Below, piece after piece: positions 24,829 to 36,796 of a stretch of DNA of 64,000 bases. The position numbers were made by a program, and so were the translations under genes. Every line of letters begins with the position of its first letter. Position 1 is the stretch's first letter. This DNA comes from Marinomonas colpomeniae (lineage in GTDB: Bacteria > Pseudomonadota > Gammaproteobacteria > Pseudomonadales > Marinomonadaceae): assembly GCF_014803385.1 (NCBI RefSeq), contig NZ_JACYFC010000002.1:793727-857726 (forward strand). The letters are read 5' to 3'. The notes under the pieces are model-generated. The model searched no databases and was not told the origin of the DNA. It worked only from the letters and a program-made list of their open reading frames with translations.

Positions 24829-26058
24829 ATGACAAATGATACGCCACTTGTTTTAGACAGTGTATGGCTTGGCGCAAATGTCGCGACCATGAAAGATGGC
24901 CGCTACAGTGCGATTGAAAATGCGGCGATAGGCGTGGCTGGTGGTCGTATTGTTTGGCTAGGAAAAGCAGAAAACCTTCCCGCTTATCAAGCGCAAGAAG
25001 AACACAATCTCGATGGTGGATGGATTACGCCAGGATTAATTGATTGCCATACACATTTAGTCTTTGGTGGAAATCGAGCGGGTGAATTCGAGCAACGTTT
25101 GAACGGAGTAAGTTATCAAGATATCGCCAAGCAGGGTGGTGGTATTGCGTCTTCTGTAAAAGCAACACGAGAAGACAGTGAAGAAGAATTGGTTCGTAGC
25201 GCGACACGTCGTTTAAAAAGTTTGATGGCCGATGGTGTGACCACGGTAGAAATTAAATCTGGTTATGGTTTGTCTCTTGAGAGCGAACTAAAAATGCTGC
25301 GCGTGGCGACCACTTTAGGTAATGAAAACCCTGTCACGATTAAACGAACCTGTTTAGCAGCGCACGCTATGCCACCGGAATATGATGACAAAGACACCTA
25401 CATTGATTTCTTGTGTGACACCGTATTACCTGAAGTTGCAAGGCTTGGTATGGCCGACGCCGTAGACGCCTTTTGTGAAGGAATCGCTTTTAGTACAGAG
25501 CAAGTAGCGCGTTATTTCAAAACAGCAGCAAGTCTTGGTTTACCAGTGAAAATTCACGCAGAGCAGCTTTCGTCTTTGGGCGGCACGCGCATGGCGTCGT
25601 CATTCAAAGCCTTGTCAGCGGATCATATTGAATTCATTGAAGAAGAAGATGTGATCGCCATGGCAGAATCTGGCACGGTTGCTGTGTTGTTACCGGGTGC
25701 GTTTTTCACCTTGAAAGAAACGCAACGACCACCAATCGATTTATTACGTCAACATGGTGTTCCTATGGCCATTGCCACGGATGCAAATCCTGGCACATCG
25801 CCAGCCTTGTCTTTGCGGTTGATGATGAACATGGGTTGTACTTTATTCGGATTAACGCCAGAAGAGACATTAGCGGGTGCGACGATACATGCCGCAAAAG
25901 CATTGGGAATGAGCGATACTCACGGTACCTTAGAAATCGGTAAAGTCGCGGATTTTGTTTGTTGGGACGTTGAAAGCCCGGGCGAACTTAGTTATTGGTT
26001 AGGTGGCAACCTAGTTAAGAATCGTGTCCATTTAGGAAAAGAGCTGCAAGGAGAGTGA
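24829..26058 (+). CDS. hutI: Imidazolonepropionase HutI
   Basis: This 409-residue amidohydrolase opens imidazolonepropionate to N-formimidoylglutamate. Metal-binding motifs are [15 protein letters not shown] near residue 65, the KIHAEQLS His, the ALSADHIEF His and [10 protein letters not shown], the conserved metal Asp. The last bases carry the ribosome site of hutG, and the two genes are 1 bp apart, so translation is probably coupled. Confidence 0.96.
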
Positions 26059-26059
26059 T

Positions 26060-26869
26060 ATGAATCATCCATTAACCGTACCGGCGTTTGAGTTCACACA
26101 AGGCGATTCTCCCTTGCTTATCAGTATGCCGCATTCGGGTTTGAACTTAACGGCAGAAGTGGACGCTGGCTTATCCAAACAAGCTAAAATATTGCCAGAC
26201 ACGGATTGGTATATTCCTGAACTGTATGATTTTTTTACGTCATTAGGTGTCAGTTGTATAAAGGCGAATTACTCTCGTTATGTGATTGACCTTAATCGAC
26301 CTTATGACGACAAACCGCTTTATGAAAGTAAAACCACAGGATTGTTTCCTGATATTTTATTCGCAGACAGCCCTGTGTTCAATCAAGGGCAAGAACCTGG
26401 TGATGCACATAAATTGTTTTGTAAAGATCAAATCTGGAAGCCTTATCACGCGACGATAGAGCAAGAGCTGGCTCGACTAAAAGTCAAATTTGGTTACGCT
26501 ATTTTGTTTGATGCACACAGCATCGCCGCACAAGTGCCTATGCTATTTGAAGGGACTTTACCAGACTTCAACTGGGGAACCAACGAAGGCAAATCTTGCC
26601 ATGAATCCTTAGCAAATATCGCTACACAGATCATCCAACCCCACTATACACAAGTGGTAAATGGACGTTTTAAAGGCGGCTATATCACTCGTCAATTCGG
26701 TCAGCCAGAAAACAACATCCACGCGATTCAGTTAGAGCTGTCTCAAGCTACCTATCTAAACGAAGCTGTTTTGAAAGAAGGGCGTTATGAACTGGATGAG
26801 CAAAAACTCCCCGTTATTAAACAGCAACTCAAAGACATTATAGAGGCTGTGAGTTTGGTTAGGTTTTAG
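26060..26869 (+). CDS. hutG: N-formylglutamate deformylase HutG
   Basis: This is a 269-residue N-formylglutamate amidohydrolase that releases glutamate and formate. It belongs to the FGase family, not the arginase-like formiminoglutamase. Motifs are LLISMPHSGLN, DTDWYIPELYDF, VIDLNRPYDD and the LFDAHSI His. With HutF present, this completes the five-step route. Only 1 bp lies between it and hutI. It is the last gene of the operon, with a clear terminator behind it. Confidence 0.94.
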   Translation: MNHPLTVPAFEFTQGDSPLLISMPHSGLNLTAEVDAGLSKQAKILPDTDWYIPELYDFFTSLGVSCIKANYSRYVIDLNRPYDDKPLYESKTTGLFPDILFADSPVFNQGQEPGDAHKLFCKDQIWKPYHATIEQELARLKVKFGYAILFDAHSIAAQVPMLFEGTLPDFNWGTNEGKSCHESLANIATQIIQPHYTQVVNGRFKGGYITRQFGQPENNIHAIQLELSQATYLNEAVLKEGRYELDEQKLPVIKQQLKDIIEAVSLVRF

Positions 26870-26894
26870 TTGTCATTGTTTGTTAGAGCTTTAA

Positions 26895-26935
26895 AGGAAT
26901 CCCCATAACGTGAGAGCGCTATGGGGATTCTTTTA
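26895..26935 (+). terminator. Terminator of the hutUHIG operon
   Basis: GAATCCCCATA (26897-26907) pairs with TATGGGGATTC (26920-26930) as an 11-bp perfect stem, followed by TTTT. It lies 27 bp after hutG. Confidence 0.9.
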
Positions 26936-26982
26936 AATAATTAACATGTAAAGCTAAAATGTAAGCTATGTCTGAATCCTGC

Positions 26983-29900
26983 TTACTTGTGACGTTTGAA
27001 AATTTGAATTAGTCCATCTCCAATATCTTTAAATGAGCTTACAATTTGAAGCGCTTGCAAAGTGTTAATTAATTTTTGGTTTTCAGCAGTTTTAGGTATT
27101 TTAGGCTTATCTTTACCTGTAGAAATTAGTTGAGGGTAATTATTTTTTAATGCTCCTAATATTCTAAATAATTGTTCACTGTCCATAGTAGAATTTAGAT
27201 GAGGGCTTAACAAGAGAATGATATCTTTGTCTTTAATGTGACTGTTAGCCATTTTTTCTACGACATCGATAGATAAATTATGATTATGTTCAATAGAAAA
27301 TTTAGCCAATTCTACTAAGCAATTATTGCTGCATTCATTTATGAACTCATCCGCACGTTCAACAATAGATTGCTTCACGCTTAGTGAGATCTTTTTACTC
27401 TTCAGAAGAGGTCCTAAGTCACTTTTTAAAAGCTCAGGAGTAATGTAGGACACAAACTTTTTGGAAACATGGATGTAGGACTCTCTAGTCGACCAATCTG
27501 TTTCAAGTAAATGCGTATAAGATTTTTCTGAATCACTGATTAGGTTGTTGCCAAGGAGAAGAGCGTATAATTCTCCCTTCTCCACGGGTAGATCTATCGC
27601 AGGGATGTAATATTTGAATTTCTTCAAGCTATTGGAAAGCTTTACTCTTAGCTGATTTGTAAGTTTAGCTTTGTTCGCATTAAGTATTTTCTTTGCAAGT
27701 TCTACTCGATGCTCTTCTTCAATTTGTTCATTATGCGATATTTCCTTACTATTAATTAAAACTTGTTCTAGGTTTTCGTCAATGCTTCCGACACTATTAA
27801 TGTAGTTATTGATGTTGTTAAACGTAGCTGGAAAGCGATTTAGCTTTGCTAATGTCTGCCAAGTATTTTCTGTGTCAGCTTTAAGGTCTTCAACAATACA
27901 TGTATCCGACGCTTGATTTATTATGTCGTCTAAATAATCAGGGTCGAAATGATAAATATCTTTTATTATTTTTATGAAGTGTTTATTTGAGTTTACAGAT
28001 TTGGAAAATCCATTTATTGAATCCAAGTAACCTTTGATATCTGTTAGAAGGTAGTTGTAAATGTCTTCATTAATTTCTAAAGCAATATCTAGCGCGAGGA
28101 TTTCATTGTTTCTTAGTGCGATGATTAAGTTTTCTTTAGTGATGGTATAAAGATTCTTGCACACAAACGCTTGCTGCATAGTTTCGGATAACAGTTTTAA
28201 CTCAGGAATACGTATTGAAGCGTCGGCAAATATGTACGTAATATTCTCTGGGATTGTTTTATCTGATGGTCTTATAAGAGTTGATAGCATAGAGTAGTGC
28301 GTTTCTAAGTATTCTGAAACAGAATCGTCTATGTTGTAATGTGTTTCAGAGTCTAAATTTTCTAGTGACAAATCGATTAGATTAAGTCGTTTTTGATCAT
28401 CTAACTCTATTCCATTGATTAGGAAATGCAGTGTTTCTTCCGTTTCAGGTGTGAGCTTTTTGATTAGCTCAACGTATTCATTTTTTCCATTTAGGAATAA
28501 TTGCAAAAATTGCTTTTCTTTTTCTCCAAACTGCATCAAAGCTCTAATCATAATATCAGTGTCTGATGAATAGTTCCTTAATAGGTAATTCAGAATAGAA
28601 ATGTTATACAGGCAAGGCTCACTTAGAGACTGTTGACCACACTCTTTTATTATGGCTTTAATGTCTTCATCCGTGAGTAGAAAGTGTTCGTCCATGACAT
28701 TACGGTCAACATTATGAATGATAAAGTTTTGAGCAGCAGGGGATACGTTGTCATCATGAAATGTTGATGTATACAGAGTGAAATTACGGTTAATATAACC
28801 TGACTTGATAAGCTGGTAAGCTAGCTCTTTTGATAGATTTTCTTTAATTATTGTATCTAGAGATTTTGCGTCTAGCGTAAATGTTGACTGTTTTAAAATG
28901 TGATATATATCTGCACTACGAAGAAATTCCAATTCATTTTTCTTTTTATCAATTGAAATGCTGAACTCTTTTTTATCAGCTGCTTTCCAGTCACTAGGAG
29001 ACAAGCTAGTACCTAGGGCTTCTTCAATATCTATAAGCTCAAAGGTTAAAGTTTGATTATAGTTATGGGGAGTCCAATAAAGTTTAGCCTTATCTTTTTG
29101 ATTAGTGTAGTCAGACCAAAAATCAACTGATTTCAAGTCATCAATTGATAGTCTTTCATTATTTAACTTTAATTGACCACTACTTGTTGCTTGGTTGGAG
29201 CATTTTAAAACTCTGTTTATATAAGTTATTAGTAGAAGCCCTAGATGTTCACTTCGTTTCTGAATACTGCTACGAGATAGATTTTCAAGATCTATTTTAT
29301 GTTGCATTATTTCTTTTTCAATACGGTTTATATTTTCTGTTATTAGCTTTCGACTAGCATCGTAAATTTTATCAAGTTTACTTTCTCCTAAACGAATTAA
29401 TTCAAAGTCCGCTAAATGAGTGCTTTTATAAAGCATCATTGCGAAGAGGTCACTTTCGCTTAGATTTAGTTGTTTGCTGTCATCTGTAAAAATTTCCTCG
29501 CGAAAAATGATGAATTCGTTACGTACATTCTTCAGTAGTCTCATGTCTGGAACATAACGAGCCGCAATCTTGATAAGCTCTGGATTGATGTTTTTATAGA
29601 GTTCGTCTTCTAATATCTGTTTTATAAGGTCTCTTGCACTTCGATGAGTAATAAATGGTACAACAGGGATAATAAGGTCAAAGAATTTTGTACGAGCTGT
29701 TTGTTGTACTGCGTCTTGAGCAGCGTCTTCTATAGTTGTAATGGTCGAATGGAGTTTTTCTAAGACTTGAACTGCGTCTTTTATAGCCGAATGTGGCTTT
29801 TCTGCGGTTTGTTTCGAGTTCGACAAATCAAAAATACTGTCTTTGATTGCATAGATAAATCGAATCGTTTCTTTGATTTGAGGTGCGCTGTTTAAAAGCG

Positions 29901-30705
29901 TATTTAAAGACCGTAACGTTTCAAAAATATGTGAATCTTCAAACCTGTCTATATCTTCAAAAATTACGATGTTCTTTTTAGATACTTCGAAGAAATACAC
30001 TATCTCATCAAGATATTGATCGAAATAAGATCCGGATTTATCATCCAATGAAATAGTCGCCGCTCCTGCTGATACGTTGCTAATACGCATACGACCATGG
30101 GTTAACCATCGAATTCCGAATGCTATTAATATAGTGAATGCTAAAATAATTAAATGAGAGTACAGGCCTAAATCGACAACCGATAAGAAGGCCTTTGAAA
30201 TTTTATCCGTCCAACTCATCAATATGAAGATTGGTACTGCTGCGATACCAATTACAAGTGAAAGACAGAGCTCTCGTACTAAATTAAATCGCTCGATTCT
30301 TTGAAATCTAGAATGTGGTGCCTTCTGAGGCTCTAATCGATACAGGAGTTGTTTTACGATTTCCTGTTGAATTCTATTGGTAGTTGTTTCTTCTAGTTTT
30401 GTTTCATCAGTATTGCCCTCAGTCGTTTTCATGGGGGCTAATGTCGATAGAGATATTTCAACTATGTCATGTTTGTGTTGATTTGCTACCTCTTGAAGAA
30501 TACTACTTTTACCGACGCCATAATTTCCTGATAGCGCTATATTACGCACTTCTGAGATTTTAAAAGCAGCATTTATTCTGTCTACATAACTATTGTGATG
30601 ATTTTTGTCGTATTCAGGTGTGAGCGGTTTGAGGCTAAGGGAGCTAGAGCTTTCTTGATCGTTGGTATTTTCTTGTATTTTGGAGAAGCAATTCCAAAGT
30701 CCCAT
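26983..30705 (-). CDS. Giant membrane-inserted P-loop ATPase (YobI/KAP-like)
   Basis: This 1240-residue protein has Walker A GNYGVGKSS at residues 60-68 and Walker B IVIFEDIDRF at 246-255. Two hydrophobic helices (about 146-164 and 183-201) lie between them. This insertion of a membrane hairpin inside the ATPase core is the hallmark of KAP and YobI-type NTPases. About 800 residues of helical, repeat-like C-terminal region without a known motif follow. AAGGAATATGAA fixes the start at 30705. The gene stands alone, is visibly more AT-rich than the hut genes beside it, and sits between an operon terminator and an unrelated gene, as expected of acquired DNA. Relatives are linked to conflict systems; its function here is unknown. 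Confidence 0.75.
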   Translation of the reverse strand: MGLWNCFSKIQENTNDQESSSSLSLKPLTPEYDKNHHNSYVDRINAAFKISEVRNIALSGNYGVGKSSILQEVANQHKHDIVEISLSTLAPMKTTEGNTDETKLEETTTNRIQQEIVKQLLYRLEPQKAPHSRFQRIERFNLVRELCLSLVIGIAAVPIFILMSWTDKISKAFLSVVDLGLYSHLIILAFTILIAFGIRWLTHGRMRISNVSAGAATISLDDKSGSYFDQYLDEIVYFFEVSKKNIVIFEDIDRFEDSHIFETLRSLNTLLNSAPQIKETIRFIYAIKDSIFDLSNSKQTAEKPHSAIKDAVQVLEKLHSTITTIEDAAQDAVQQTARTKFFDLIIPVVPFITHRSARDLIKQILEDELYKNINPELIKIAARYVPDMRLLKNVRNEFIIFREEIFTDDSKQLNLSESDLFAMMLYKSTHLADFELIRLGESKLDKIYDASRKLITENINRIEKEIMQHKIDLENLSRSSIQKRSEHLGLLLITYINRVLKCSNQATSSGQLKLNNERLSIDDLKSVDFWSDYTNQKDKAKLYWTPHNYNQTLTFELIDIEEALGTSLSPSDWKAADKKEFSISIDKKKNELEFLRSADIYHILKQSTFTLDAKSLDTIIKENLSKELAYQLIKSGYINRNFTLYTSTFHDDNVSPAAQNFIIHNVDRNVMDEHFLLTDEDIKAIIKECGQQSLSEPCLYNISILNYLLRNYSSDTDIMIRALMQFGEKEKQFLQLFLNGKNEYVELIKKLTPETEETLHFLINGIELDDQKRLNLIDLSLENLDSETHYNIDDSVSEYLETHYSMLSTLIRPSDKTIPENITYIFADASIRIPELKLLSETMQQAFVCKNLYTITKENLIIALRNNEILALDIALEINEDIYNYLLTDIKGYLDSINGFSKSVNSNKHFIKIIKDIYHFDPDYLDDIINQASDTCIVEDLKADTENTWQTLAKLNRFPATFNNINNYINSVGSIDENLEQVLINSKEISHNEQIEEEHRVELAKKILNANKAKLTNQLRVKLSNSLKKFKYYIPAIDLPVEKGELYALLLGNNLISDSEKSYTHLLETDWSTRESYIHVSKKFVSYITPELLKSDLGPLLKSKKISLSVKQSIVERADEFINECSNNCLVELAKFSIEHNHNLSIDVVEKMANSHIKDKDIILLLSPHLNSTMDSEQLFRILGALKNNYPQLISTGKDKPKIPKTAENQKLINTLQALQIVSSFKDIGDGLIQIFKRHK

Positions 30706-30859
30706 TTCATATTCCTTTACGTGCAATGTGTATAAATCATTTATTTGATTTTCACTTTATCGTGTTCAAAACAAAAGACCAAATTCTTTATTTGAATATA
30801 AGCAGGTATGTTAAATTACCGTTCACTTGGACGCTGTTTACTTATACGAGAATATTCAA

Positions 30860-31678
30860 ATGAAACTTAACTTCCATAAATCTTTTTGGGAAGCACCCTG
30901 CAATAACGAGCATGACTTTAACGAGCTCATAAAACGCACTCATGCCGATGGTTATCAAGGTACCGAGTTGTTCTTACCATTTTTTGATATTGATACCGAT
31001 GTAGTGCGAGAAGCACATGCTGAACTTGGGCTGAGCATTATTACGGGTATTGGTACGGCTGGTGACACGGTTGAAGATCATCTAGAAAGTATGAATACTC
31101 AAATTGAACGTGCGGTTGAGTTTGAACCTGTGCTGATTAATTCCCATACTGGGCGCGATATTTTTAGCTTGAAAGACAATTTACGTCTATTTGAAAATGC
31201 TTTAAAACTCGAACAAAAGCACAACATAACCATCACCCATGAAACGCATCGATTTAGACCCACGTTCAGTACATTTGATACAGAAAGAATCATCGATGCA
31301 TTACCAGAATTAAAATTGAACTTGGATATTAGTCATTGGATGGTGGTCCATGAATCTGATTTGAATGATCAATTGGAACGTTTAGAAAAAATATTTTCTC
31401 ACGTACATCATATTCATGCGAGAGTCGGTTTCGAAGAAGGTCCACAGGTTACCAATCCACAGGATGAACTTTGGGCGGGGCATGTAGAGAACCATGTAAA
31501 ACTATGGCAAAAAGTGATCGACCTTGCAAAAAACAGAGGTCAATCCGGTTTTACCATCACCCCTGAGTTCGGTCCTTTTCCATACGCACATGTACAACCC
31601 AATACGCATGAGCCTATGGTTGATATTTGGGCAGCGAATAACTTCATGCAACAGCACCTCAGAAATAAGCTTGTTTAA
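30860..31678 (+). CDS. Sugar-phosphate isomerase/epimerase-like TIM barrel protein
   Basis: This is a 272-residue AP-endonuclease-2/xylose-isomerase-like TIM barrel. Metal-site candidates are ITHETHRFRPTF, LDISHWMVV, HIHARVGFEEG and ITPEFGPFPY, which bring in Glu, Asp, His and Glu ligands. The ATG at 30860 is preferred over a start 11 codons earlier because the sequence MKLNFHKSFWE begins the first beta strand. It is convergent with the LysR gene by 18 bp and may act with the TRAP system beyond it. The reaction cannot be named. Confidence 0.75.
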   Translation: MKLNFHKSFWEAPCNNEHDFNELIKRTHADGYQGTELFLPFFDIDTDVVREAHAELGLSIITGIGTAGDTVEDHLESMNTQIERAVEFEPVLINSHTGRDIFSLKDNLRLFENALKLEQKHNITITHETHRFRPTFSTFDTERIIDALPELKLNLDISHWMVVHESDLNDQLERLEKIFSHVHHIHARVGFEEGPQVTNPQDELWAGHVENHVKLWQKVIDLAKNRGQSGFTITPEFGPFPYAHVQPNTHEPMVDIWAANNFMQQHLRNKLV

Positions 31679-31696
31679 GAATGAAGTTGAGCTTTA

Positions 31697-32602
31697 TTAA
31701 ACCATAAATCGATGCTTTTCTTCTGCACATGCATTCAATATAAAGTCCCAAGTAAGCTTCAGATCTCTAAATTTGTGAAGATCCTTACTTGTTGATATCC
31801 AGAGCTCTCTATGAAGCAGTGTTTTGGGTAAAACTGGCGTGATATTGGGATCTCCGTATGCGACGAAGTGTGGAAGGATACCAATACCTAACCCTGTATT
31901 TACCGCTTTATGTTGAGTATGTATAGTTGTCGATTTATAGATGAAGTTTAGGTTTGGTGATATTTCACCTTGGTATTTCAATAAATCAGAAAAAACCTGA
32001 TCTTCAATGTAGCCAATAAAATGATGGTTTAACAGGTCGGACGTTTTTTCTATTGGATCATTATTCGACAAGTAGTCTTGTGTTGAAAATAAGCCGAGCG
32101 TGTAGTCAGTGAGTTTTTTCTGAATGATATTCGATCCTTTTTGCGGACCGATTGTGATACTGATATCGACTTCGCCGCTGGTAATAAAGGTACTACCCGC
32201 CAATGAAATAAGCTCTATGTCGATACCTTGATCTTTAATCCAAGCCGGTAAACGGCTGGAAAGGAAATAATTACTAAACCCTTCTGTAACACCGATGCGG
32301 ATTTTGGAACGAATTTCTTGTACGTTTCTGTAGTTTTCATTCGCCAAGCGCAGGGTTCTTTCACATTTCTCTGCATAAGGAATCAGATTCTCTCCCGCTG
32401 TGGTCAGGTGAAATCCTTTGCTGTTCTGAAAAAAAAGTTTTGTTCCAATCGCTTTTTCAAGTTGTTCGACTCGATTGGCAATGGTGACATGCGTACAGCC
32501 GATTTTAGTTGCTGCTAAAGAGAGCCTTTTGTAGCGCCAAAGTGCTAGAAAATACTTTAGGTCATTCCAATTAATAGCTAATAAATCTGTGTTGTCGCTC
32601 AC
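31697..32602 (-). CDS. LysR-family regulator of the TRAP cluster
   Basis: This 301-residue LysR-type regulator has an N-terminal helix-turn-helix (YKRLSLAATKIGCTHVTIANRVEQLEKAIG) and an effector-binding domain. The start codon is GTG, with AAGGA seven bases before it. It is divergent from the TRAP genes across a 394-bp region holding several inverted repeats, so it probably controls that operon. Confidence 0.85.
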   Translation of the reverse strand: MSDNTDLLAINWNDLKYFLALWRYKRLSLAATKIGCTHVTIANRVEQLEKAIGTKLFFQNSKGFHLTTAGENLIPYAEKCERTLRLANENYRNVQEIRSKIRIGVTEGFSNYFLSSRLPAWIKDQGIDIELISLAGSTFITSGEVDISITIGPQKGSNIIQKKLTDYTLGLFSTQDYLSNNDPIEKTSDLLNHHFIGYIEDQVFSDLLKYQGEISPNLNFIYKSTTIHTQHKAVNTGLGIGILPHFVAYGDPNITPVLPKTLLHRELWISTSKDLHKFRDLKLTWDFILNACAEEKHRFMV

Positions 32603-32996
32603 ACTTTTTTCCTTTTTTATGAGATCAAGGTAACGCTATTTTATTTCATGAAATCATGGTGTTAGTAGGTTTTTATTCATATAGTGTCTTGTTATGAAAT
32701 GCTCATTAATGTAAAAAAAATATCAGTGTTAGCAAGGTTCAGAATACGACGAAATACTATAAACCAACCAAAATAGGGCGTTAATAATTGTATTTGCACA
32801 GATTTGGTGCTCTTTTTGAGTTTCTTATTGCCACTATAAAAGAAGGAATCGAACAGTTATTGTAAAAATATTTACAGTTGTTGTAAATAAAATGCTATTG
32901 CCTTTACGGTGGCATAAGCCTACTTTTTATCTCGAAGTAGATGCACTGATTAACGCTCAGAATCTAGAAAAATCAACCCAACTCGGTAGGCATATC
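32603..32996. other. LysR/TRAP divergent control region
   Basis: This 394-bp region has no ORF of merit. It contains a perfect 12-bp palindrome, ATTTCATGAAAT (32643-32654), near the LysR gene and a run of alternating TGTAAA/TTTACA half-sites (32861-32887) before the TRAP genes. Confidence 0.6.
32861..32887 (+). promoter_or_regulatory. Triple TGTAAA/TTTACA half-site cluster
   Basis: TGTAAA (32861-32866), TTTACA (32871-32876) and TGTAAA (32882-32887) alternate with 4- and 5-bp spacers and form two overlapping inverted repeats. The cluster sits 110 bp before the TRAP binding-protein start. LysR binding is a guess from position. Confidence 0.4.
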
Positions 32997-33974
32997 ATGA
33001 TGAAAAAACCTTTAATCGCAGCGCTCGCATTATTAATGAGTACATCTGCATTGGCAGCTGAATTTAATTTTACCTTTGCACATGTATTAATCGATGAAAC
33101 GCCAAATGGACAGGCAGCCCTAGCTTTTGCTAAAGAAGTGAAAGAAAAATCTAATGGTCGCATTGACATAAACGTACTTTCAGCAGCTAAGCTTGGTGGA
33201 GACGTTGAAATTATTGAACAATTACAAATGAATATGGTTCAAATAGCGATGCCGCCTACTGCTACTTTGGGTAACTTTGAGCCTCGTGTCCAAATTCTTG
33301 ATCTTCCATTCTTGTTGCCATCAAAAGAAATCATGATGAAGGTATTGGATGGACCAGCAGGTCGTAAAATTCTAGACACATTAGAAAATCATGACATGCA
33401 TGCGGTGAATTTTTGGGGCGCTGGCTTCCGTCATATGACGAATAACGTTCGTCCTATCGAAGAGCCTACTGATCTTAAAGGTCTCAAAATGAGAACCATG
33501 CAGTCGCCTATCTTGTTAAGTACGTATCGTAACTTTGATGCCAATCCAACTGCGATGGCCTACACCGAAGTGTATAACGGTCTTCAGCAAGGTGTAATAG
33601 AAGGGCAAGAGAATCCTATTGCAAATATTACCAGTAAGAAGTTTTATGAAGTTCAAAAGTACATGACACTGACGTCTAACGCTTATCATGGTTATGCGAC
33701 TATTGTGAATAAACAAGCGTGGGAGTCTCTTCCAGAGGACCTACAAGTCGTGATGACGGATGCGTTTGATTATGCTCGTGGCGTGTCTCGTACATTGACG
33801 GATGAGTTAGAGGCTTCTGCGTTGGATAATATTAAGAAATACACACAAGTAACTACCTTGTCTAAAGCTCAAATGGAGGCATTCATTGAAGCAAGTAAGC
33901 CTGTTCATGAAGAATTTCGTAAAACCGTTACTTCTGATTTGTTAGACCTTGTTTATCAAGAAATTAAGAACTAG
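32997..33974 (+). CDS. TRAP transporter substrate-binding protein (DctP family)
   Basis: This 325-residue periplasmic binding protein has a signal peptide (PLIAALALLMSTSALAA, mature EFNFTFAHV). Family marks are ETPNGQAALAF, the carboxylate-binding Arg in LKGLKMRTMQSP, and the later GVIEGQENPIANI with its conserved Gln-Glu-Asn-Pro. The start at 32997 (ATGATG) puts the signal peptide at the front; a reading 35 codons longer does not. It is first in a P-Q-M order. The substrate is a carboxylate of unknown identity; the linked dehydrogenase hints at an amino or keto dicarboxylate. Confidence 0.9.
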   Translation: MMKKPLIAALALLMSTSALAAEFNFTFAHVLIDETPNGQAALAFAKEVKEKSNGRIDINVLSAAKLGGDVEIIEQLQMNMVQIAMPPTATLGNFEPRVQILDLPFLLPSKEIMMKVLDGPAGRKILDTLENHDMHAVNFWGAGFRHMTNNVRPIEEPTDLKGLKMRTMQSPILLSTYRNFDANPTAMAYTEVYNGLQQGVIEGQENPIANITSKKFYEVQKYMTLTSNAYHGYATIVNKQAWESLPEDLQVVMTDAFDYARGVSRTLTDELEASALDNIKKYTQVTTLSKAQMEAFIEASKPVHEEFRKTVTSDLLDLVYQEIKN

Positions 33975-33982
33975 TGATTGCT

Positions 33983-34013
33983 AAGAGACTCTATTTTTAA
34001 AATAGAGTCTCTT
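33983..34013 (+). terminator. Strong intercistronic hairpin between TRAP P and Q genes
   Basis: AAGAGACTCTATTTT (33983-33997) and AAAATAGAGTCTCTT (33999-34013) form a perfect 15-bp inverted repeat around one base, 8 bp past the binding-protein stop. No uninterrupted T tract follows, so partial termination or 3'-end protection of the binding-protein mRNA is more likely than full termination. Confidence 0.7.
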
Positions 34014-34035
34014 AATGTCTTAATGTCTTAATGTC
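34012..34035. repeat. Three tandem TTAATGTC octamers
   Basis: TTAATGTC is repeated three times without interruption directly after the hairpin and before the ribosome site of the Q gene. It has the look of slippage-prone DNA. Confidence 0.8.
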
Positions 34036-34067
34036 ACTCCCAGAAAAACCATTAAAAAGAGACGTTA

Positions 34068-34580
34068 ATGTTCGAAAAAATCAATAAGCATTTAGATAAA
34101 ATAGAAGGCTTCCTCATTGCCAGTATTTTGGCCGTTGCGTCGCTTCTTACCTTTACTCAAGTGTTTTTTCGCTATGCGCTAAACGATTCTATTTTTTGGG
34201 CAGAAGAAGCAATTTTATATCTTATTATTTCTATGAGTTTTCTTTCGACCAGCTTAGGAATAAGAAAGGGAAGTCACATTACGGTCGATATTTTAAAGTC
34301 TTCTATTCCAAAATCTTGTATTAAGTTCTTTGTTTTTATTGCAGCCGTTATTGGTGCACTCTTCGCTCTTACTTTGCTTTATTACGGTGGTGTTCTGTTT
34401 TTAGGTACATTGGCTCGTGGTCAATTATCCCCAGCGTTAAGAATCCCTGTTGCTTTTATCTATGCATTCATTCCCATTACGGCGTTTTTTCAAGTAATTC
34501 GATACGCAGGCATTATGTGTTCTGTATTTGGTGAATCCAATGAAACAACGATAGCAATCAATAACGACCATATTAATTAA
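34068..34580 (+). CDS. TRAP transporter small membrane subunit (DctQ family)
   Basis: This 170-residue protein has four predicted membrane helices, as usual for DctQ. FTQVFFRYALNDSIFWAEEAILYL and SLGIRKGSHITVDIL are the family signature. AAAAGAGACG precedes the ATG. It couples the binding protein to the large subunit encoded 25 bp downstream. Confidence 0.9.
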   Translation: MFEKINKHLDKIEGFLIASILAVASLLTFTQVFFRYALNDSIFWAEEAILYLIISMSFLSTSLGIRKGSHITVDILKSSIPKSCIKFFVFIAAVIGALFALTLLYYGGVLFLGTLARGQLSPALRIPVAFIYAFIPITAFFQVIRYAGIMCSVFGESNETTIAINNDHIN

Positions 34581-34605
34581 CCACTTTTAATACAGAGAAT
34601 TTTAC

Positions 34606-35880
34606 ATGGCAACGCTCCTTTTTCCGCTGTTTTTATTATTGCTGCTATTAGGCTTACCCATTTATGGATCACTGGCGTTTTCCGTTATCGGTGCCATGGA
34701 ATTAACAGGAACAATGAACCCAACCATTGTTCCGATGAGAATGTTTTCCGGTATAAATAATTTCTCATTGATGGCTATTCCGTTTTTTATCTTGGCTGCT
34801 GAATTAATGCGAGTAGGTGGTTTATCTACTCGACTTATTAAGCTTGCTCAAGTCCTTATTGGCTGGGCGCCGGGAGGCTTAGCGTCTGCAGCTGTACTAT
34901 CTTGTTTGTTTTTTGGTTCTATTTCTGGCTCCAGTCCTGCCACAGTAGTTGCCATTGGTAGCATCATGTTTCCTGCGCTAGTTGAGGCGGGCTACAGCAA
35001 GCGATTTGCAATTGGATTACTGACAACGGCCGGAACATTAGGACCCATTGTTCCTCCAAGTATCGCGCTGATTATTTATGGTTCTGTCACCTCGACAAGT
35101 ATCGGTCAATTGTTCGCCGCAGGTATTCTTCCTGCCTTGTTATTGGGCGGTTTGTTGATCGCGTATTGCACTGTGTACTCAAAAAGAAAAGACTTCCCTA
35201 GAGCGCCATTTCCGACATTAGCGGAAGTTACCGAGGCGTTTAAAGGCTCCGCTTGGGGTTTAGGGCTTCCGGTTATTTTATTGGGTGGCATTTATAGCGG
35301 TATTTTTACGGCGACAGAATCGGCTGCGGTGGCGTGTGTTTATGGCTTATTTGTTGGCATGGTGATTTATAAACAAGTGAGCGCGAAAGATTTATGGGAA
35401 ATCCTACAAAATACAGGATTAACCTCAGGTGCTTTGTTATTGATCACCGCAGGTGCTTCTGCCTTTGCGTGGCTATTAACGATTATTGGTATGCCTTCAT
35501 TACTTGCGAACTCTGTTTTATCTTTGAGTGACTCGTCTTTTGTTATTACCGCATTACTTAATGTGATTATGTTGGTGGCTGGCTTTTTTCTGGATAGTGC
35601 GTCCGCGATTATTGTATTGGCGCCTTTGATGACGCCAATCGCTTCAGAAGTCGGCATCGATCCTGTGCATTTCGGGATTATCAATCTAGTGAATTACTCG
35701 GTTGGCATGATAACACCACCTGTTGGCCTTAACCTTTTTGTCGCGGTCACTATTTCAAAAATGGGTTTGTTTGAGGTTTTCAGAGGCTGCATACCATTTC
35801 TCATCATCATGCTGATCGGTCTCATGATTATTACCTATGTTCCATGGTTAAGTCTGGCGCTTCCTAGTGCGATGTTTTAA
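34606..35880 (+). CDS. TRAP transporter large membrane subunit (DctM family)
   Basis: This 424-residue integral membrane protein has about twelve helices and is the ion-coupled transport channel. Marks include FSLMAIPFFILAAELM, FFGSISGSSPATVVAIGSIM near residue 105, TLGPIVPPSIALIIYG near 145 and the late SVGMITPPVGLNLFVA, all typical of DctM. The start codon follows the Q gene by 25 bp, so the two are co-transcribed. Confidence 0.93.
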   Translation: MATLLFPLFLLLLLLGLPIYGSLAFSVIGAMELTGTMNPTIVPMRMFSGINNFSLMAIPFFILAAELMRVGGLSTRLIKLAQVLIGWAPGGLASAAVLSCLFFGSISGSSPATVVAIGSIMFPALVEAGYSKRFAIGLLTTAGTLGPIVPPSIALIIYGSVTSTSIGQLFAAGILPALLLGGLLIAYCTVYSKRKDFPRAPFPTLAEVTEAFKGSAWGLGLPVILLGGIYSGIFTATESAAVACVYGLFVGMVIYKQVSAKDLWEILQNTGLTSGALLLITAGASAFAWLLTIIGMPSLLANSVLSLSDSSFVITALLNVIMLVAGFFLDSASAIIVLAPLMTPIASEVGIDPVHFGIINLVNYSVGMITPPVGLNLFVAVTISKMGLFEVFRGCIPFLIIMLIGLMIITYVPWLSLALPSAMF

Positions 35881-35959
35881 CCGTAAATCTAATACCTCTG
35901 TAATGGTAAGTACTCAATGTTATGTCGCGCTTGTTATTATTGCGCAGTAAAGGATTAAA

Positions 35960-36796
35960 ATGAAATCGAACACTAAATTGAAAGTCGGAATTATTGGCTT
36001 GGGTGCTATTGGTCAACATGTAGCAAACAGCATAGAAAATGGAGAGGTTGGAAAGGCTGAATTGGTTTCTCTTTTATGTAGAAATAAAGAAAAATATTTA
36101 ACAATTAATGCAGATAAATCAGAATATTTTAAATTATTAATCACAGACAGTAGTGACGTATTTTTCGCCACAAAACCTGACATTATTATTGAAGCTGCTG
36201 GTCAAGAAACACTTTCACAATATGGTGTCGAAATACTAGAAAAAGGGATAGATCTATTAGTCTCAAGTATTGGGCTTTTTACAGATGATCGTGTGTTGAA
36301 TGCATTTATTCAGGCAGCAGAAAAATCAGGCTCTAAGCTCTTGCTTTCATCCGGTGCTTTACCTGCCGTTGATTGGATGTCGGCGGCGTCTTTGTCTAAA
36401 GTAAATGATGTTTCGATCACGCAAACGAAGCCTGTGAACTCTTGGAAGGGCACGCCAGCGGAAAACTTTGTTGATCTTGATGCTATCAAAGTGCCTACTT
36501 GTTTCTTTGAAGGCACTGCACGAGAATCCGCAAGCCTATTTCCTAAAAGTAGTAATATTAGCGCTATGTTGGCACTCGCTACAGTGGGATTAGACTCCAC
36601 TAAAGTGAAATTAATTGCAGACCCTATGGAGTCTGTAATGTACACAGATATTGCGTTTGATAGTGAAGTAGGAAAACTACAAACTCGTTGGCAAGGTGTA
36701 CCTTCTGAGGTCACACCAAGTACCAGTGCTGATGTGCCTCTGACCATAGTTAAAGCGCTTAAAAATCTGACTTCATCGGTTTGTTATGGGGTTTAA
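35960..36796 (+). CDS. Aspartate dehydrogenase-like oxidoreductase (DUF108 family)
   Basis: This 278-residue NAD(P)-binding protein has GLGAIG at residues 13-18. The family middle segment LLSSGALPAVDWM (usually SGAI/LxGLD) and the late VKLIADP are recognisable. In characterised L-aspartate dehydrogenases a catalytic His lies in an N-x-H-x-I block after that. Here the matching stretch reads SVMYTDIAF, with no His. The protein may therefore act on another substrate or be altered in mechanism. It follows the TRAP genes by 79 bp and is probably their catabolic partner. Confidence 0.75.
   Translation: MKSNTKLKVGIIGLGAIGQHVANSIENGEVGKAELVSLLCRNKEKYLTINADKSEYFKLLITDSSDVFFATKPDIIIEAAGQETLSQYGVEILEKGIDLLVSSIGLFTDDRVLNAFIQAAEKSGSKLLLSSGALPAVDWMSAASLSKVNDVSITQTKPVNSWKGTPAENFVDLDAIKVPTCFFEGTARESASLFPKSSNISAMLALATVGLDSTKVKLIADPMESVMYTDIAFDSEVGKLQTRWQGVPSEVTPSTSADVPLTIVKALKNLTSSVCYGV

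Follow-up and report, generated by a model that had tools for sequence, protein, structure and literature searches.

The window analysed here is a 64,000-nucleotide stretch of Marinomonas colpomeniae DNA (contig NZ_JACYFC010000002.1, positions 793,727 to 857,726). At 26983-30705, on the minus strand, it carries a gene for a 1240-residue predicted membrane ATPase, labelled P0001. We consider it likely that P0001 acts against phage as an immune protein of the Tmn kind, in which receptor (sensor) and membrane effector would be contained in a single polypeptide; that the gene serves immunity, and in a generally known way, is very probable. An earlier note on this DNA had proposed a self-contained defence gene. 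Judged from sequence, that role now appears well supported because the protein is a homologue of Tmn, a tested one-gene system, because its presence in the genus is patchy, and because it lies in a slot that is common to the defence genes Dsr1 and IetAS. One-gene Tmn of this architecture is known already; what appears to be new is a divergent clade of the Tmn kind. Its interest lies in the interchangeable slot, in a link to type I restriction in actinobacteria, and in the comparison that it offers for solving the mechanism of Tmn.

Family Assignment and Relation to Tmn

The gene (26983-30705, minus strand, stop codon included) is an uninterrupted open reading frame (ORF) that starts with ATG at 30705 and encodes 1240 residues plus stop; an in-frame TTG, 21 bases upstream of the ATG, is the mechanical start of the ORF. 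Residues 40-445 (29371-30588, minus strand) match the YobI-ATPase domain of Pfam, PF20693, with E 1.2e-113 and 380.9 bits against a cut-off of 27, over model positions 1-363 of 363. The likeness to Bacillus subtilis YobI is judged from the match to the full 363-position domain. The earlier note had described the protein as YobI/KAP-like and had suggested a profile search. That search bears out the YobI part; the Pfam KAP model (PF07693) gives nothing at E <= 1 with P0001, and for the copy in M. rhizomae it gives a weak match (E 1.3e-5). The closest system had been missed by the note: the PADLOC model for Tmn (PDLC02220) matches P0001 with E 1.3e-45 and 153.7 bits, and is the sole PADLOC match at E <= 1. 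The same model scores 2221 bits with WP_001505097.1, a 1264-residue protein of an Escherichia coli plasmid that we take as Tmn proper, and 265 bits with an Alteromonas protein. The genome of B. subtilis, one of the controls, has matches to both PF20693 and the Tmn model.

Tmn, a system of E. coli and other bacteria, is described, in the accessible part of PMC11846954, as a KAP-family nucleoside triphosphatase (NTPase) with two unusual transmembrane domains, and the single cloned protein blocks several phages in E. coli DH10B. According to the same excerpt, escape from Tmn came through a missense change in the phage DNA-modification gene nmad5, deletion of nmad5 gave no escape, and one phage has an anti-Tmn protein that blocks the system. 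A search on KAP/STAND conflict systems led to PMC7159879 and PMC10853773; the available text of the latter ties immunity against phage to a P-loop NTPase of the KAP family and does not mention YobI. A literature search that combined YobI with NTPase brought up only work on GlnR. Tmn was reportedly first described by Gao et al. in 2020, and synergy between Tmn and Gabija is said to have been found by Wu et al. in 2024.

P0001 shares with Tmn the YobI-type ATPase, what appears to be a single gene, and a similar length. Inside the P-loop domain of P0001 two membrane helices are predicted, and the excerpt of PMC11846954 gives Tmn two unusual transmembrane domains. A profile of the P0001 family was run against 53 sequences. 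With E. coli Tmn it scores 279.6 bits, the match spanning profile positions 10-715 of 1223; with proteins of Sutcliffiella, Agrobacterium, Roseovarius, Sinorhizobium, and Alteromonas it matches almost end to end. The alignment holds as far as E. coli Tmn at a motif N-terminal to Walker A, at both Walker motifs, and at the C-terminal tip of helix and hairpin. P0001 and E. coli Tmn are 24.6% identical in the N-terminal 60% and 13.6% identical in the remainder. Since the motifs align and the solenoids are 13.6% identical, the architecture appears to be common to both proteins, with solenoids too diverged to be recognized easily.

In a maximum-likelihood tree of 53 sequences, a 47-row clade with P0001 is split from a six-row Tmn-side set with 100/100 support; E. 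coli Tmn sits on a very long branch, of which the tree program warns. This tree and A2, a 42-row alignment, exclude two broken or partial Marinomonas copies (L031, L042) and one further locus (L017). By its sequence, P0001 is not a classical Tmn. It differs from E. coli Tmn in its separate clade, in its diverged solenoid, and in a model match that falls mainly in the N-terminal quarter, and it belongs to a divergent clade whose loci were found in Pseudomonadota and Actinomycetota. The clade would be a deep, separate branch of the Tmn architecture with a divergent solenoid, so that the conserved parts (Walker motifs, hairpin, and tip) can be told apart from the variable sensor.

Predicted Structure and Proposed Mechanism

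The Walker A motif GNYGVGKS (residues 60-67; 30505-30528, minus strand) keeps G60, G65, K66, and S/T67 in 52 of 53 aligned rows, P0001 included. The Walker B motif NIVIFEDIDRF (residues 245-255; 29941-29973, minus strand) keeps E250, D251, D253, and R254 in all 53. The two motifs are ~180 residues apart and enclose two hydrophobic stretches (residues ~139-169 and 169-204; 30094-30291, minus strand), which are predicted to be transmembrane helices and in which 19-residue windows reach a hydropathy of 2.6. The earlier note had placed a two-helix insertion at this very position. Of the 42 rows of A2, 2 could not be scored; among the other 40, two hydrophobic peaks are seen in 38, again including P0001, and a single peak in two (L027 and L028).

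An AlphaFold2 model of residues 41-1240, built with 42 sequences, has a mean predicted local distance difference test score (pLDDT) of 83.9 and a predicted template modelling score of 0.52, with low confidence (pLDDT below 50) in model segments 55-62, 166-175, and 257-295. Residues 600-1240 folded alone (model m118d03790fec) reach a mean pLDDT of 89.6 and form an alpha-solenoid of ~530 residues (~656-1185; 27151-28740, minus strand), which is the proposed sensor. The predicted C-terminus is mostly helical, in keeping with the long helical region described in the earlier note. The solenoid is followed by a predicted tip of one helix and a wing-like beta-hairpin (residues 1202-1237; 26995-27102, minus strand), whose pattern is visible as far as E. 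coli Tmn.

In its N-terminal part, the model has a likeness to ORC5/Cdc6, to RdrA, and to STAND NTPases. The ATPase part matches ORC5 with a Z-score of 12.6 (163 residues, root-mean-square deviation (rmsd) 3.3). RdrA of RADAR is matched by model residues 1-628 with Z 10.5 (310 residues, rmsd 11.5). Avs4 (Z 8.8), Apaf-1, NOD2, and NLRC4 match more weakly; the match to Avs3 (Z 9.4) has an rmsd of 60 and little meaning. RdrA, Avs3/Avs4, and other STAND-type NTPases would thus share with P0001 the predicted ATPase fold and the segment that follows it, and RdrA and Avs are anti-phage proteins as well. They differ from P0001 in their C-terminal parts and show no significant sequence match with it. 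We know of no RdrA, Avs, or other STAND-type NTPase with a membrane hairpin inside the ATPase. For the solenoid, the matches are of the generic ARM/HEAT type (best Z 5.9) and Foldseek returns nothing at E <= 0.001; since the resemblances are generic, they suggest no binding partner. Among PDB structures, P0001 has no significant sequence relative (best E 0.031).

We infer the trigger and the killing step of P0001 by analogy. The cytoplasmic solenoid and tip would recognize a phage cue, which may be a protein of the phage or a feature of nucleic acids, and recognition would release the ATPase. The ATPase may then assemble in an ATP-dependent manner, as STAND and RdrA-type NTPases do. The membrane hairpin within the ATPase core would thereupon change membrane permeability or block infection at the membrane, and phage production would consequently fail.

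A Variable Slot Downstream of hutG

A presence/absence comparison across the genus, as the earlier note had proposed, finds homologues of P0001 in 5 of 48 Marinomonas genomes, including its own; 43 have no match at E <= 0.001. Besides P0001, long matches occur in M. rhizomae (genome G031) and in G044, whose copy lies in two pieces at the ends of two contigs. The other two are remnants, with ~196 C-terminal residues in two frames (G030) and 63 residues (G027). A sixth copy lies in M. rhodophyticola (L031:7992-11669) and aligns over its length in one frame, with an open frame that is divided into 531 and 594 residues; this copy looks interrupted. All six are found downstream of hutG, in convergent orientation to it. 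The interval between hutG and the homologue is empty in the window, holds a DUF924-type gene in G044, and in the remaining four sites holds an antitoxin-like helix-turn-helix (HTH) gene, either by itself or together with a RelE-like partner.

Of the 48 genomes, 43 have a hutG that could be placed, which together with the M. rhodophyticola locus gives 44 sites. Six of these hold a P0001 homologue or remnant, two hold Dsr1, one holds IetA plus IetS, and 35 hold none of these. What can be said firmly is that three unrelated recognized defence types occupy one slot in different genomes of the genus. Dsr1, a SIR2-domain giant of 1241 residues, is found in genomes G034 and G018 (L073:1927-5649, minus strand, and L077, where its frame lies 547-4269 bases downstream of hutG). 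The one member of the pair that was scanned (L073) matches PADLOC Dsr1 with E 3.6e-75, and the two are 76.6% identical. Dsr1 resembles P0001 in its slot, near-equal length, and convergence with hutG. In contrast, Dsr1 and IetAS are enzymes unrelated to P0001, and the best BLAST match between Dsr1 and P0001 (E 0.026) is not significant. IetA (L083:5981-6967, minus strand) and IetS (L083:3425-5965, minus strand) of genome G036 match PADLOC with E 6.7e-70 and 7.6e-46, and follow a toxin-antitoxin-like pair. A slot in which unrelated one- and two-gene defences interchange is a natural place for finding further Marinomonas systems.

A sister pair of genomes shows the presence/absence swap directly. 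G043 and G044 are 95.0% identical over 595 bases of the left flank and 88.8% over 1183 bases of the right flank. Between these flanks, G043 has ~376 bases and G044 has the two ends of a P0001 homologue, with the middle in a contig gap. The earlier note had held that conservation at this site in all relatives, together with host-like codons and no effect on phage, would speak against a defence gene; the gene is in fact found in only 5 of 48 genomes, in two of them as fragments, although its codons are host-like.

An antitoxin-like HTH gene precedes the slot in 13 of the 44 hutG loci, and a RelE-like gene is present in 7. At seven of the 13 antitoxin-preceded sites, a recognized defence gene is or once was present. 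There, the next frame after the antitoxin-like gene begins at 20 bases (both Dsr1 sites), 26 bases (M. rhizomae homologue), 68 bases (IetAS), 12 and 135 bases (the two remnant sites), and 203 bases (M. rhodophyticola, with an intervening frame).

Two further observations were made at the slot. A RelE-like toxin and an HTH antitoxin lie directly after hutG and mark the slot in L068 (7496-7810 and 7209-7505, both minus strand) and relatives, and DUF4160 and DUF2442 genes occur near the toxin-antitoxin-like pair. In L087 (genome G040), minus-strand frames of 398, 762, and 1076 residues fill the slot 854-7943 bases downstream of hutG; the 762-residue frame has no PADLOC match at E <= 0.001, and these genes are possibly another system.

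The two sides of hut were compared under equal rules (40 genomes, 7 kilobases (kb), frames of at least 75 residues). The 3' side has 298 ORFs in 155 clusters, as opposed to 245 ORFs in 58 clusters on the 5' side, where two stretches are shorter than 7 kb; the 3' side is therefore the variable side of hut. One representative per cluster was then scanned with PADLOC. On the 3' side, 106 representatives of at least 75 residues from 35 loci, starting within 4.5 kb of hutG and with the window excluded, match Dsr1, IetA, and IetS at E <= 1e-10, and also PDC-S47, CARF_2OG, mad3, TRIP13, and AbiEi. The 56 representatives of the 5' side match one IetA-type protein at the same threshold, together with TRIP13, DolB, mad3, WYL, and Csa3. 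PDC-S47, CARF_2OG, mad3, and AbiEi, with one member each at the 3' site, could not be assigned to individual ORFs (ten candidates gave no match at E <= 1e-8) and were not counted as defence. The generic names mad3, mad8, AriA, GajB, WYL, and Csa3 were discounted because they arise also among ordinary window genes or in the 5' control.

Homologues on Plasmids and beside Restriction Genes

Among 274 genomes sampled across the class, P0001's own is the only one above the Pfam cut-off, and two other matches fall below it. A scan of genome collections found 45 loci, all from Pseudomonadota or Actinomycetota by their titles. Homologues also occur on plasmids: 634 of 72,556 plasmid records match P0001, of which 463 are from Escherichia and 7 cover at least 80% of the protein. 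The Escherichia matches among the best 40 of the 634 have ~24% identity over 58% of P0001, and one of them is WP_001505097.1. Annotated neighbours of plasmid copies in the P0001 clade include NACHT and HEPN genes beside one copy, as well as HNH. On the Tmn side, AbiH and AbiV lie beside one copy, and a DNA cytosine methyltransferase is also annotated. A phage origin was rejected, with matches in 0 of 50,697 phage records (tblastn, E <= 1e-5) and weak matches in PHROGs (best E 3.2e-4). NCBIfam names of aminoglycoside and ABC exporter kind fall far below their cut-offs and were set aside.

Exclusion genes are often plasmid-borne. P0001 could be an exclusion factor at the membrane, comparable with PifA, that would stop DNA entry or a late step of infection without cell death, a reading that we hold to be unlikely. 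The conserved hydrophobic hairpin inside the ATPase would suit it, as would the plasmid homologues, 480 of the 634 matched records being predicted to be conjugative. The large solenoid and the STAND/RdrA-like predicted fold suggest instead a protein that senses and assembles, not one that excludes passively.

The neighbours of homologues point in part to restriction. A set of 126 ORFs of at least 80 residues, taken from 181 neighbouring ORFs and drawn from 35 loci (31 of the 45, plus four plasmid loci), was scanned with PADLOC; it omits the Marinomonas loci L002, L031, and L042, the Tmn-group loci L061 and L064, and the more distant loci L035-L041 and L043-L046. Among the matches listed (25 of 197 families) are nine to REase_I (type I restriction enzyme), two to MTase_I (type I methyltransferase), and two to GajA; none of these three is among the matches listed (25 of 53 families) for 52 other ORFs of the window. 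Names such as HsdM, HsdS, M48-type peptidase, AbiE, OLD, and RloC-like were given to neighbours by eye, unless PADLOC names the family. In nine actinobacterial loci (L005, L011, L012, L014, L016, L017, L019, L021, and L033), a large frame lies upstream on the same strand as the homologue. These nine frames form one BLAST cluster (1026-1228 residues), taken from their sequences as type I restriction enzymes (HsdR). In four of the nine loci, an apparent M48-type metallopeptidase stands between the large frame and the homologue.

P0001 might belong to type I restriction-modification as an accessory subunit or a backup, a guard that would respond to inhibition of restriction and that has been left alone in this genome. 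The nine REase_I matches, the upstream HsdR frames of the actinobacterial loci, and the HsdM- and HsdS-like ORFs directly upstream of the homologue in Methylobacillus (L009) speak for such a guard. However, 26 of the 35 loci lack a REase_I match among their nearest ORFs (at most four per locus, each of at least 80 residues). No restriction family is among the matches listed for the window (25 of 53), nor among the 19 families at the hutG 3' sites of relatives. Tmn, moreover, works as a single gene according to the available text of PMC11846954. We regard this reading as improbable. A broader proposal is speculative: the YobI clade with P0001 would be a distinct NLR-like immune receptor lineage with its own membrane pore-former in the ATPase switch, travelling alone or as a guard in type I restriction operons that responds once restriction is defeated, and exchanged as a cassette with Dsr1 and IetAS at one chromosomal slot.

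Age, Base Composition, and Counter-Evidence

The guanine-cytosine (GC) content of the P0001 gene is 34.2%, compared with 42.0 +/- 2.4% for 48 genes of the window, and lies below the lowest of these (35.9%), in agreement with the AT-richness that the earlier note had pointed out. Its codon-use score of -0.048 lies inside the range of the window genes (-0.006 +/- 0.033, lowest -0.072). A codon choice within this range despite the AT-richness fits an older resident.

The N-terminal parts of four Marinomonas copies form one clade (98/95) and are 54-87% identical to one another; those of L031 and L042 entered only that tree, together with 23 of the 53 family rows. Between the window and either L002 or L031, HutU is 93-94% and HutG 77-78% identical. 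On these sequences, the copies fit a resident lineage that diverges fast and is often lost or decaying, and repeated exchange of P0001 homologues within the genus could also have taken place.

Several points weigh against P0001 as a Tmn-like defence protein. Most hutG sites, 35 of 44, are without a recognized defence gene of the counted kinds, and the IetA match on the 5' side shows that defence-like genes occur near hut outside the 3' slot as well. Nor is there anything special in the close spacing behind the antitoxin-like gene, as any next gene shows it: at the 6 of 13 antitoxin-preceded sites without a recognized defence gene, the next frame begins at 13-78 bases. The codon use of the gene is host-like. 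The PADLOC Tmn match lies mainly in the N-terminal part, at model positions 12-329 of 1273 plus one further stretch (11-329 and 327-489 in the genome search), and identity to E. coli Tmn is low in both its N-terminal (24.6%) and C-terminal (13.6%) portions. Membrane insertion is predicted from hydropathy. The Z-scores of the predicted fold are middling, and the tool itself warns that such scores may reflect a common arrangement only; Foldseek finds nothing at E <= 0.001. Lastly, Tmn is a tested but mechanistically unexplained system, its precise mechanism being stated to be unexplored in the accessible part of PMC11846954.

A chromosomal gene for housekeeping or stress, such as one for an ATPase that surveys the membrane and has nothing to do with phage, would account for the host-range codon use and for the single clade (98/95) of the four Marinomonas copies at one locus, which is consistent with long residence, but is very improbable given the 43 of 48 genus genomes without a match at E <= 0.001, the fragments in 2 of the 5 others, the slot common to Dsr1 and IetAS, and the homologues on plasmids and beside restriction genes.

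Surroundings in the Window

hutG (26060-26869, plus strand) is the left anchor of the variable site and is separated from the P0001 gene by 113 bases; the names hutG, TIM-barrel, LysR, and TRAP in the window were read by eye. The gap holds a palindrome with a T-rich tail (26890-26937, plus strand), presumably the hut terminator. It is absent from the list of a promoter and terminator scan whose numbers are near chance, and palindromes of a similar kind follow hutG in several of the 14 sites listed.

A PADLOC scan of the 52 other ORFs of the window matched 53 families. Among the matches listed (25 of the 53), all are generic helicase, ATPase, and regulator kinds, such as mad3, mad8, AriA, RtcR, and the GajB and RTasHel matches of a Rep-type helicase, and none is a plausible defence gene beside the P0001 gene. 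The gene thus appears to stand alone in the window, without the partner that the earlier note had also failed to see. Such an absence is expected rather than odd, because Tmn is a one-gene system.

On the other flank, the nearest gene is at 30827-31678. In a nucleotide search of the genus with 25500-32600, the right flank adjoins hutG in no other genome, and in G046 a match to the LysR-type gene lies on a different contig from hutG. The right side of the slot (30827-36796) looks strain-specific too.

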